This document shows, piece by piece, positions 6,153 to 24,146 of a DNA stretch of 36,393 bases. Every line of letters starts with the position of its first letter. Within the stretch, counting starts at the first letter, position 1. Position numbers and translations under genes: made by a program. Source of the DNA: an uncultured Granulosicoccaceae bacterium (GTDB lineage: Bacteria; Pseudomonadota; Gammaproteobacteria; Granulosicoccales; Granulosicoccaceae); the NCBI GenBank assembly GCA_937951345.1, contig CALFCF010000078.1, positions 1 through 36,393 on the forward strand, read 5' to 3'. The notes beneath the pieces are model-generated. The model saw only the letters and a program-made list of their open reading frames with translations, was not told the DNA's origin and did no database searches.

Positions 6153-6452
6153 CAGCTTCACGTGCTTTCAACAATAGCTTTGGCACATGCTGACGACCTG
6201 TTTTCGAGAATCCATCTCAACATTGAGATTGTGCGCTCAAACATGGTGTGTGACGCTCGAGCAGCGCAGTTAGCAGCGCAGTAAATGAGCAGCAGCGCAG
6301 AACGGCACACAATGACGCATCAGCGCGCAGAATCCATTTTAAGATGGCTTCTTGTAAATCTGTCTGTTAACGTCCTTTAACTTATGGAATTCGTATGAAA
6401 TACGTATCAGCTACGCGTCTGTTAGAGCACAACGCGTGAGGCTTGGGTGTGA
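6153..6452. other. Gap filled mostly by a dispersed inverted-repeat element
   Basis: About half of these 300 bases is the repeat element at 6207-6352. The remainder before the CoxG-like gene is AT-rich and could hold its promoter, but no confident promoter hexamers were found. Confidence 0.6.
6207..6352. repeat. Dispersed inverted-repeat element, copy 1 (MITE- or REP-like)
   Basis: The element starts AGAATCCATCTCAACATTGA and ends TTTTAAGATGGCTTCT, so its ends are imperfect inverted repeats. The first 54 conserved bases (6212-6265 or so) match the copy at 21715-21845 with only about four differences, and a second block (GGCACACAA..CG.ATCAGC..GCAG) also matches. This copy is about 15 bases longer in the middle because of extra GCAGCGCAG-like repeats. 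It has no coding capacity. It lies between livF and the CoxG-like gene. Confidence 0.8.
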
Positions 6453-20735: not shown

Positions 20736-21698
20736 ATGACCGAATACAACCAGCCACTGGGTGGCAACGATATGCCGCGTTTTGCTGGCCCGGGTACGAT
20801 GATGCGCTTGCCTGCGGCTCAGAGCGCAGCCGGTCTTGATGCCTGCTTTGTGGGTATACCGATGGATATTGGCACATCCCATCGAGCCGGTACGCGTTTC
20901 GGGCCACGTCAGATTCGCGCAGAATCAGTGATGATACGTCCGTACAACATGTGGTCGCGAATTTCACCTTTTGATCACATACAGATTGCAGACGTTGGTG
21001 ATATTGCCACCAATCCGTTTGATTTGAAAAAATCAGTTGCACTGATTGAACAAACCTACACTGAACTGCTTAAGCACCCTGTGATACCACTGGGTCTCGG
21101 GGGCGATCATACCCTCACATTGCCGATATTACGTGCGATGGCAAAAAAACATGGGCCGGTTGGATTAGTTCATGTCGATGCGCACGCTGATATCAATGAG
21201 CATATGTTCGGTGAAGAGATCGCACACGGCACACCTTTTCGTCGCGCTGTTGAAGAAGGTCTATTGGATTGTAAGCGCTGTATTCAGATTGGATTGCGCG
21301 CTACCGGCTATTCGGATGATGACTTTGACTGGCCGCGAAAGCAGGGTATGCGGGTAGTGCAGGCAGAGGAATGCTGGCATCAATCGCTGACACCATTGAT
21401 GGCAGAAGTACGCAGTCAGATGGGGCAGGGGCCGGTATACCTGACTTATGATATTGACAGCCTTGATCCAGCCTACGCACCGGGCACAGGTACAATCGAG
21501 ATTGGCGGTCTTACTACTGTTCAGGCCCTGGAGATCATACGCGGTTGTGCAGGCCTTAATCTGGTGGGTTGCGATCTGGTCGAAGTGTCTCCGCCTTATG
21601 ATACCAGTGGATCAACGGCTGTTATCGCCGCCAACTTGTTATACGAGATGTTGTGTGTGCTGCCACAGGTTCTTGACAGAGCAGACTCCCGTGCGTAA
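20736..21698 (+). CDS. gbuA: Ureohydrolase of the agmatinase family, guanidinobutyrase-like
   Basis: This 320-residue cytoplasmic manganese enzyme removes urea from a guanidino compound. The metal ligands are all present: H125 in GLGGDHTLTLP, D148-x-H150-x-D152 in HVDAHADIN and D239-x-D241 in YDIDSLDP. From memory the sequence tracks Pseudomonas guanidinobutyrase almost throughout, including the N-terminal YNQPLGGNDMPRF, FGPRQIRAESVMIRPYN, EEIAHGTPFRRAVEEGLLDC and VGCDLVEVSPPYDTSG. So 4-guanidinobutyrate to GABA plus urea is the best guess; guanidinopropionate, agmatine or guanidine remain possible because specificity rests on few residues. A 21-bp palindrome lies 35 bases upstream. No ribosome site is clear. 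A repeat element separates it from the cupin gene. Confidence 0.88.
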   Translation: MTEYNQPLGGNDMPRFAGPGTMMRLPAAQSAAGLDACFVGIPMDIGTSHRAGTRFGPRQIRAESVMIRPYNMWSRISPFDHIQIADVGDIATNPFDLKKSVALIEQTYTELLKHPVIPLGLGGDHTLTLPILRAMAKKHGPVGLVHVDAHADINEHMFGEEIAHGTPFRRAVEEGLLDCKRCIQIGLRATGYSDDDFDWPRKQGMRVVQAEECWHQSLTPLMAEVRSQMGQGPVYLTYDIDSLDPAYAPGTGTIEIGGLTTVQALEIIRGCAGLNLVGCDLVEVSPPYDTSGSTAVIAANLLYEMLCVLPQVLDRADSRA

Positions 21699-21714: not shown

Positions 21715-21845
21715 TAGAAGCCATCTCAAAATTGAGATTGTGCGCTCAGACAAGGTGTGTGGCGCTCGAGCAGCACACAGTGGCACACAACGCCGGATCA
21801 GCTTGCAGGACTCGGCGTCCCCGATCGATTTTGAGATGGCTTCTA
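21715..21845. repeat. Dispersed inverted-repeat element, copy 2, with perfect 18-bp ends
   Basis: The left end TAGAAGCCATCTCAAAAT (21715-21732) and right end ATTTTGAGATGGCTTCTA (21828-21845) are exact reverse complements. Inside are smaller palindromes (TCTCAA-AA-TTGAGA; GTGTG and CACAC blocks; CTCGAG). The left half matches copy 1 (6207-6352) at about 50 of 54 bases, and a GGCACACAA block also matches. If the outer TA is a target-site duplication the element would resemble an IS630/Tc1-type MITE; otherwise a large REP-like structure. It fills the gap between gbuA and the cupin gene. Confidence 0.85.
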
Positions 21846-21885: not shown

Positions 21886-22401
21886 ATGGAAAGTTTGATA
21901 AAAAAAATAAAAAATGCAGCAACTAAGGATGATGCCAATCATCTGATTAAATCCTTTCTGAAAAGCTGGGTTGAAGATGTTGTAGAGAACAATGTCCCGA
22001 TACCTGACTACGAGGAAGATGAGTGCTTGCTGTTTGAGGACGAAAGCGTGTCCATATGGCATTGCCGTTATCGTCCCGGTTTTACAGTACCGGCACACGA
22101 TCATCAGATTGTTGCCACGATCGCAGTCTATCAGGGTATCGAAAGTAACACTCTGTGGGTGAAGACAAACGACGGTGGATTGAAAAAGAAATCTGTTATA
22201 GAGATAAAACGCGGTGAAGTTCTGCAATTCGGGCCGACAGCAATTCACTCCGTGAGTTGTGCAAATGATAAGGATTCACTGGCAGTCCACGTCTATCAAG
22301 GAAACCTGAGCACTATCGATCGCTCGTTGTTTGATACGCAAACCGGGCAGACGATGCCTTTCTCGGACGAAAATTATGAGCTGCTGGCCAACAAGGCTTA
22401 G
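21886..22401 (+). CDS. Cupin-fold protein, cysteine-dioxygenase-like
   Basis: This 171-residue cytoplasmic protein has a single cupin barrel. The probable metal site is H71-D-H73 in TVPAHDHQIVATIAVYQG and H121 in FGPTAIHSVS, the three-histidine arrangement found in cysteine dioxygenase and related thiol dioxygenases. A typical cupin Glu is absent from the first motif, supporting a three-His type. The tail has VHVYQGNL and a MPFSDENYELL end, also seen in the predicted metal-dependent double-stranded beta-helix family. The substrate is unknown. The first 20 residues are Lys-rich. There is no clear ribosome site at ATG 21886. It ends overlapping the convergent nnr gene by 4 bases, so the two genes run into each other with no terminator. 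Confidence 0.7.
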   Translation: MESLIKKIKNAATKDDANHLIKSFLKSWVEDVVENNVPIPDYEEDECLLFEDESVSIWHCRYRPGFTVPAHDHQIVATIAVYQGIESNTLWVKTNDGGLKKKSVIEIKRGEVLQFGPTAIHSVSCANDKDSLAVHVYQGNLSTIDRSLFDTQTGQTMPFSDENYELLANKA

Positions 22402-24146
22402 TTAGAAAAAAACGGTTCAACAACTGAACCGTATTGCGCAGGTATATCACTTGCGATCAAGCCGGGGCCAACATTTTGCGCGGCTTTCGTATGCAGCCAC
22501 ACAGCAAAGCATGTGCGCTTAAAAGCCATTTCATGCCCGGACAAGCGCGCTTCAGTCGGTGAACTCCTTTCGGTTGCCAGGTGTTTGCGAGTCGTGTTCA
22601 TCGCTATCGAATTTAGCTTATGCTGCGCCAATAATCCTGCAATCGTGCCAGCCAGCACATCCCCGGACCCGGCTGTTGCCAGCCACTGCGCAGCCGGTGG
22701 GATACTGTCAGCGTTGATAACTGCTTTACCATCCGGTGACGCTATTACAGTGTCTGCACCTTTGTGAACTACAATCGCTCCTGACAACGCAGCCGCTCGT
22801 TTTGTTCTTTCCAGCTTGCCGGTGCATTCATTGATCTCTTGCTGCTGCCCGAAAACCCGATCGAATTCCCCCTCATGCGGTGTCATCACAACGATGCTAT
22901 TACTGTGTTGAATCATCGAAAACAGAGATTCCGGTTGTTCAACTCCTGAATGTCCAAAGCACGACAATGCATCAGCGTCCAATACAACATGTGGCCCGTT
23001 GCTATCGTTCAAGGCAATGCAAACCTTGTCTGCCAGTTCCTTTGTCACGCCGTTGGCGGGTCCCAGAACAACACAATCAAACGGGTTATCTTCCAGTTGC
23101 TGTCTAAACTGATGTTCGTTGTCAACGATGGTTTGCATCACTTCTGTCAAGTGGGATGCGTTAATCGGAATCGCCTCTGTCGGACTCGCCATTGTGACGA
23201 CACCGGCACCGGCGCGTAAGGCAGCCAGTGCTGACAAACGTGCAGCACCCGTAGCATGCACTGGACCGCTTTGAACCAACACATGACCACGCCGGTATTT
23301 ATGGTCGGAAACTGACGGGCTGGGGATGGTTTGTTGCCATAACCCGGGGTTGTTGGCATGACACGATGGCTTGAGTTTCGTGAGTACCGAAGGTGAAATA
23401 CCGATATCACGCCGATGAATTGTACCGCAGTGCGAACGTCCCGGATAAAGCCAGTGTGCCGGCTTGTGGCGAAAGAATGTCACCGTGTGATCAGCTGCTA
23501 GTGCAGTCCCGCATATCTGCCCGCTATCGCCGTTAATCCCGCTGGGTAAGTCGATGCTCAGTATCATCTTACGTTGCTGATGAGAATTGTTAGCTGTGCG
23601 CCAGGCATTCAATACATCAATCAAAGTTGCGAGCCTGCCGGTGACAGGTCTTGATAATCCGGCGCCGAAAACTGCGTCGATGATCAGACGACAATCAGTG
23701 AATTCTGAGGGCAAGGTGAGCGGCTGTTGTTGCGATTGGGCAGATCTGCCTGATTGCTGAATAACCTGATCGATGTTCAGGTCATCCAGTGTCAGGAGTT
23801 TGCCGTCGCCTTGTGTTTGAAACCAGTCGAGAGCACGCGCTGCATCGCCCTTAAGTTCTATCGGTCGATCTCGATCAGCACATAAAACTGTAGAAACAGG
23901 TACACCTTGCAACTGTAATAGTGCTGATAGCAAAAGACCATCACCACCGTTGTTGCCAATACCGCAGATGACGGCAACACGGTCATTGTTATCCAATAGT
24001 CCGAGTGAGACCTCCAAAACCGCATGTGCCGCGTTCTGCATTAATGTAAAGCTGTTGGGTACGTCGCTCAGTGCTAATCGATCAGCCTCATACATCTCGT
24101 GGACCGATAATATCTCTGACGCGCAATCTGGAGGGGTTTTATCCAT
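22398..24146 (-). CDS. nnr: Bifunctional NAD(P)HX epimerase / ADP-dependent NAD(P)HX dehydratase
   Basis: This 582-residue cytoplasmic enzyme repairs hydrated NADH and NADPH. The N-terminal YjeF_N epimerase domain (about 10-230) has VAVICGIGNNGGDGLL and LIIDAVFGAGLSRPVTG, followed by MILSIDLPSGINGDSGQICG and an ADHTVTFFRHKPAHWLYPG end. The C-terminal ribokinase-fold dehydratase (about 265-575) has RRGHVLVQSGPVHATGAARLSALAALRAGAGVV, VVLDADALSCF, IVVMTPHEGEFDRVFG and WLATAGSGDVLAGTIAGLLAQ, with the ADP-binding and catalytic Asp in the last block. Length is slightly above the usual 500 or so, with a few low-complexity insertions. The start at 24146 lies 82 bases from the divergent aminotransferase start, so a shared promoter region is likely. 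Confidence 0.93.
   Translation of the reverse strand: MDKTPPDCASEILSVHEMYEADRLALSDVPNSFTLMQNAAHAVLEVSLGLLDNNDRVAVICGIGNNGGDGLLLSALLQLQGVPVSTVLCADRDRPIELKGDAARALDWFQTQGDGKLLTLDDLNIDQVIQQSGRSAQSQQQPLTLPSEFTDCRLIIDAVFGAGLSRPVTGRLATLIDVLNAWRTANNSHQQRKMILSIDLPSGINGDSGQICGTALAADHTVTFFRHKPAHWLYPGRSHCGTIHRRDIGISPSVLTKLKPSCHANNPGLWQQTIPSPSVSDHKYRRGHVLVQSGPVHATGAARLSALAALRAGAGVVTMASPTEAIPINASHLTEVMQTIVDNEHQFRQQLEDNPFDCVVLGPANGVTKELADKVCIALNDSNGPHVVLDADALSCFGHSGVEQPESLFSMIQHSNSIVVMTPHEGEFDRVFGQQQEINECTGKLERTKRAAALSGAIVVHKGADTVIASPDGKAVINADSIPPAAQWLATAGSGDVLAGTIAGLLAQHKLNSIAMNTTRKHLATERSSPTEARLSGHEMAFKRTCFAVWLHTKAAQNVGPGLIASDIPAQYGSVVEPFFSN

Follow-up and report, generated by a model that had tools for sequence, protein, structure and literature searches.

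The window analysed here, a stretch of 36,393 nucleotides from an uncultured Granulosicoccaceae bacterium, carries a short segment with mirrored ends, preceded by an arginase-family gene and followed by a cupin-like open reading frame (ORF). This raises the questions of what the segment is, what moved it there and what its strongly folding interior is for. The segment, 21715-21845, reads TA-GAAGCCATCTCAAAAT...ATTTTGAGATGGCTTC-TA. As described in an earlier note made from the letters alone, it is 131 bp long, its 18-bp terminal inverted repeats (TIRs, including the TA) are exact, it lacks coding capacity, with no ORF of at least 100 amino acids inside the element, and the cupin-like ORF starts 40 bases past its end (21886 versus 21845). 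Folded as RNA, the element forms one long hairpin of -60.6 kcal/mol (z = -5.6 versus shuffles). Neither a promoter- nor a terminator-like site was detected near the element and the cupin-like ORF, and a Pfam search with this ORF returned no match.

Table 1. Features in and around the element (window coordinates)
Feature	Position	Strand	Basis or remark
TA, left end	21715..21716	.	Presumed target-site duplication
Left TIR GAAGCCATCTCAAAAT	21717..21732	+	Same TIR on the IS5-family element L130:4-897
Family A element, internally deleted copy of 127 bp	21717..21843	+	+ denotes AAGGC-to-AACGC orientation
ERIC-type core, 5'-half remnant (AAGG and 5' arm)	21752..21767	+	Alignment to 154-bp consensus
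Point of the 27-bp gap, central TTTAC...GTAAA hairpin missing	21767..21768	.	Consensus has GAGCAGCGCA direct repeats on either side
ERIC-type core, 3'-half remnant, AACGC at its end	21768..21793	+	Alignment to 154-bp consensus
Right TIR, exact inverse of left TIR	21828..21843	-	
TA, right end	21844..21845	.	Target CTAA; presumed target-site duplication
Arginase-family gene, upstream of the element	20736..21698	+	PF00491, 2.8e-94
Cupin-like ORF, downstream of the element	21886..22401	+	
Other family A copy of the window (144 bp, old), core kept	6208..6351	+	R1 match 6243-6316, 18.2 bits

The genome-wide copy search proposed in the earlier note revealed a large family, termed family A, with GAAGCCATCTCAAAA as its end string. 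Using the window element as query, 47 BLAST matches were obtained in its own genome, where the TIR is found 100 times with up to two mismatches, compared with a single match for the reversed control. At least 57 interspersed copies were delimited by hand, including the "copy 1" that the note implied, at window 6208-6351. Taken together, these counts argue that the feature is not a product of chance. An oriented alignment of the copies yields a 154-bp consensus (RNA folding z of -6.2), from which they diverge by 8% on average. TA is present at the left end of 38/57 and at the right end of 41/57 copies, whereas the dinucleotide has a background frequency of 0.047; the 28 copies with TA at both ends mostly occupy a YTAR target. 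Family A copies are mostly intergenic, with every gene orientation represented. Near one end of six copies (L021, L027, L049, L054, L062, L063), a 14-bp unit TCGGGGACGCCGAG is tandemly expanded.

Two genomes of the same genus were compared with respect to insertion sites. At the locus of copy L017, both (G001 and G002) retain the two flanking genes without the element. A covariance model of the element core (R1, see below) identifies 7 copies in G001 and none in G002. At the window locus G002, read by eye, carries the arginase-family gene directly followed by an opposite-strand gene resembling window 22398-24146, with neither the element nor the cupin-like ORF. In the window, this ORF separates the arginase-family gene from a convergent neighbour. 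Insertion/absence polymorphism among relatives is therefore observed for family A at the level of loci. The alignment with relatives suggested earlier thus bore out the absence of the element, at L017 in both congeners and at the window locus in G002, but not the expected TA duplication, which is not visible at base level because the intergenic flanks have diverged too far. Being short, non-coding, multi-copy, bounded by TIRs and TA flanks and absent from congeners, the element is supported as a miniature inverted-repeat transposable element (MITE), in line with the first reading of this locus.

The window copy represents a 127-bp form, in which the 27 bp between two GAGCAGCGCA repeats are gone from the 154-bp plan. 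In a poorly resolved tree built without the deleted columns, at least 13 changes are needed to account for 16 short copies, and short and long copies group together at 80-86% support. As short copies are scattered on the tree, the 27-bp core loss probably occurred in many separate events; in the window copy it was probably caused by slippage between the direct repeats after insertion. A single, separately mobile 127-bp subfamily is not supported in view of this scatter and number of changes, read with the poor resolution of the tree in mind.

We then asked which enzyme could have moved family A. IS630 and Tc1 elements duplicate TA on insertion, and the TA at both ends had led to the suggestion of an IS630/Tc1-type origin. 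A MITE derived from such a transposon is very improbable and this reading is largely refuted: no DDE_3 (IS630-type) transposase was found in the element's own genome, no IS630 gene lies between family A TIRs in any locus checked, and the TIR is an IS5-family one in five separate cases; together with the same TA flanks, it bounds an IS5-family transposase gene. An 894-bp IS5-family element (L130:4-897) carries exact family A TIRs with TA on both sides, and two of its frames match PF13340, PF01609 and NCBIfam NF033580 (IS5 family transposase). IS5 transposase genes also adjoin the family A TIR in L174, L198 and the viral contig L352. On a Leptospira weilii plasmid (L368), a RefSeq-annotated IS5-family transposase with 62% identity is bordered by TTA-GAACCCATCTCAAAA and its inverse, a TIR that differs from that of family A by one base. 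The exact string TAGAAGCCATCTCAAAAT is moreover present in MITEs of Desulfobacterales, Bacteroidota and others. The family A TIRs qualify as those of an IS5-family element.

In the 115 contigs of the own genome (95.5% complete) no IS5 transposase with family A ends was found, a weak argument given the incomplete assembly and an enzyme that a non-autonomous element need not keep, and neither of its DDE_Tnp_1 genes (L073, L074) is surrounded by a family A or B TIR pair. Since no gene with these ends was found in the genome, yet the TIR is linked to IS5, the mover of family A was, judging from these sequences, most likely an IS5-family enzyme that is now lost or unassembled. L198:1597-1914 holds what is left of an IS5 gene, 318 bp bounded by TIRs, and apparently represents an internal deletion en route to a MITE. 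Two viral contigs with 927-bp TIR pairs were rejected as IS5 carriers, as they hold no IS5 gene and their left end is a poor match; the family B TIR pattern was not found in viral contigs.

Searches with R1 uncovered this second family, B, in the same genome: about 60 near-identical copies of 140 bp with ends GGAACCTCTGATTTATT (for example L267:267-406, L254 and L269). Family B is younger than family A. Identical 4-bp flanks, nearly all YTAR, surround 12 of 17 copies, and the core follows the same plan as in A with a central stem TGTAT/ATACA. Many B copies lie at contig ends, so that family B probably broke the assembly. An empty and a filled site can be compared within another repeat, C, which reads GGAAATTGCTTAGTTTTCATT without B (L036) and GGAAATTGC-TTAG-[B]-TTAG-TTTTCATT with it (L267). 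Repeat C itself (L016, L036, L048, L049, L053, L279) ends in TA-GCCTGCTCTATTCATGAAGG, and several A copies abut a C end at a common TA. One single, old copy (L278:1759-1899) is a chimera, in which the left end and arm of B are joined at the core to the right half of A.

What families A and B share is the core, and similarity to distant relatives is likewise found mainly in the middle of the element. In full-length copies the core reads AAGGC-arm-GCGSAG-TTTAC-loop-GTAAA-TGAGCA-arm'-AACGC and covaries; the full-length copies L014 and L044 carry it, scoring 65.6 bits with the core model. Of 185 genomes searched in the class, 32 contain the pattern AGTTTAC-N2-10-GTAAATGAGC, in as many as 72 places in one genome, while the reversed control stays close to zero. 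The sequences around the pattern have AAGGC, GCGSAG, TGAGCA and AACGC in common, whereas the arms between them differ yet stay complementary. An alignment of 25 sequences drawn from other genomes has 84% paired cells, both sides have changed in 14 of 23 pairs, and the covariation score amounts to 0.344, compared with 0.130 for shuffled and at most 0.171 for slid alignments. Adding family B and Desulfobacterales sequences raises this to 16 of 23 covarying pairs, now including the central stem, and a score of 0.492 versus 0.172 shuffled. In a set of 29 elements, own arms pair at 8.1/10 positions and swapped arms at 5.8/10; none of 10,000 permutations reached 8.1. R1, built without Desulfobacterales sequences, detects the Desulfobacterales MITEs L152 and L133 at E values of 1.3e-6 and 2.3e-5, and a further covariance model, R2, matches in 105 of 299 genomes of the phylum (E <= 1e-4). 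Hosts by name include Pseudomonas and Halomonas plasmids, with no feature annotated at the sites. Bacteroidota MITEs with the family A TIR (L114, L170, L205) read GAGGCG-arm-GGAG-stem-TGACG-arm'-CAACG by eye; unscored by R2, they were not accepted as core members. Across the class the same core lies between many different ends, and it accordingly behaves as a widespread hairpin module that moves between different TIRs.

Pairing of the arms between families might also arise without selection on the hairpin, if template switching during replication perfected the palindromes. Hairpin-templated correction is a known mutational process, and G-U and A-C mispairs of family A are about equally frequent in A1 (15 versus 12) and A2 (13 versus 13). 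The conserved AAGGC, GCGSAG, TGAGCA and AACGC are, however, unpaired or loop-closing, and correction would not conserve them. We therefore regard template switching as unlikely and favour preservation of the hairpin itself.

The block order of the core is reminiscent of ERIC, an element whose range is given as Enterobacteriaceae and Vibrionaceae (PMC10969869). R2 contains no ERIC sequence, yet when 49 kb of E. coli were searched it matched a single site, the ERIC copy in the ybhJ-ybhI interval (E 0.0024; 0.018 with R1). In eight genomes, R2 produced 37 matches at E up to 0.01, 24 of which were fetched: 11 are ERIC copies recognised by BLAST (L334, L335, L339, L340, L343, L345, L346, L348-L351) and others belong to a second enterobacterial repeat. 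The latter (L329, L332, L333, L337, L342) has a central stem CGTAC/GTACG and is possibly a known repeat such as YPAL/RU-2. The link to ERIC consists of model scores (E 0.0024 in 0.1 Mb, ~1e-5 to 0.01 per genome) and not of long sequence identity. ERIC and family A could accordingly be unrelated MITEs that converged, as their outer arms and TIRs are wholly different and single ERIC scores are modest. This appears rather doubtful, considering that AAGGC, GGAG, TGA, AACGC and the central stem agree in order and spacing, that the sole strong match in the E. coli segment is ERIC, and that an ERIC-free model recovered 11 ERIC copies genome-wide. A search of Rfam with the window and related loci gave nothing credible, and no description of this core outside ERIC was found in the open-access literature; as far as that literature shows, the occurrence of the core outside Enterobacteriaceae and Vibrionaceae and the exchangeable ends are new. 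Tentatively, at somewhat less than even odds, ERIC may be the enterobacterial branch of old mobile hairpin cassettes distributed across the phylum and beyond, which would have outlived their transposases by swapping TIRs, chiefly for IS5-family ends, and which would need the hairpin for mobility.

A common core leaves the purpose of the hairpin to be explained. The element could be retained since its RNA regulates neighbouring genes, for instance as an RNase site: in Yersinia, exposure of an RNase site by ERIC and an effect on mRNA have been reported (PMC2229807), and the window copy combines a strong predicted RNA fold with an intergenic position near the cupin-like ORF. Several observations make this improbable. 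Copies occur in every gene orientation and the element is missing from congeners. Divergence in family A is about the same at paired (0.080) as at unpaired (0.086) positions, paired changes are rare, and G-U mispairs in the core do not exceed A-C (56 of each in the inner stems). In the family A TIRs G-U does prevail over A-C (78/37), an excess explained at least in part by a single frequent A/G variant of the right arm. The mispair counts give no clear sign of RNA selection. The interior, for which a large REP-like RNA structure had been considered, is not a REP but an ERIC-type hairpin module. As the hairpin is kept between families and not at single insertion sites, we infer that it serves propagation rather than a host function.

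Collectively, we interpret the element as a non-autonomous DNA transposon with IS5-family ends that carries an ERIC-type hairpin module as a passenger (probability roughly 0.77). An IS5-family transposase acting in trans would have cut the element and joined it at TA, preferably within YTAR, leaving TA on both sides. In the 154-bp form the hairpin module lies between the TIRs and is preserved across families by paired changes, whereas single copies decay once inserted. Other families, including one of this genome, have the module between other TIRs; it thus behaves as a passenger cassette that takes on the ends of whichever transposases are available. Recombination at the shared core, of the kind seen in the A/B chimera L278, is the probable route. 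The window copy inserted between the arginase-family and cupin-like genes and later probably lost 27 bp of its core.

ERIC has been used in typing for decades, while its mover and relatives have stayed unexplained. Provided that the core is indeed shared and ends can be exchanged, a search for the mover could start from relatives bearing the ends of known IS5 elements, and comparing the mobility of elements that have the hairpin with that of elements lacking it could reveal its role. Modelling the core by covariance would further label a frequent type of intergenic DNA, most of which has no annotation at present, as illustrated by its presence in 105 of the 299 genomes sampled.

Among known systems, the closest experimental parallel is MITEPsy1 of Pseudomonas syringae, which transposes and duplicates CTAG or YTAA (PMC3189936). 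It is non-autonomous, has 18-nt TIRs, shares the CTAG/YTAA duplication with family B and is suspected to be of IS5 origin (PMC3189936). Unlike family A it measures 100 bp, and the comparison covers ends and target. IS5-family insertion sequences of the NF033580 type (L130:4-897, Leptospira weilii L368) resemble family A in TIRs that are identical or one base off and in TA flanks, but encode a transposase and lack the hairpin module. The RUP and Correia/NEMIS MITEs are likewise TA-bordered and structured, although with other TIRs, and RUP has been linked to IS630-Spn1 (PMC2229807). ERIC (IRU, RU-1) of enterobacteria shares with family A the size class (127 bp), TA ends, a long hairpin, the lack of a transposase gene and the block order AAGGC-GGAG-stem-TGA-AACGC. 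It differs in its central stem CTTAC/GTAAG, in arms without sequence kinship and in its TIRs TATACCC/GGGTATA; as these TIRs are missing from family A, an assignment to ERIC proper was rejected. The element is thus of a known kind, a MITE, standing outside both ERIC proper and the IS630 MITEs.
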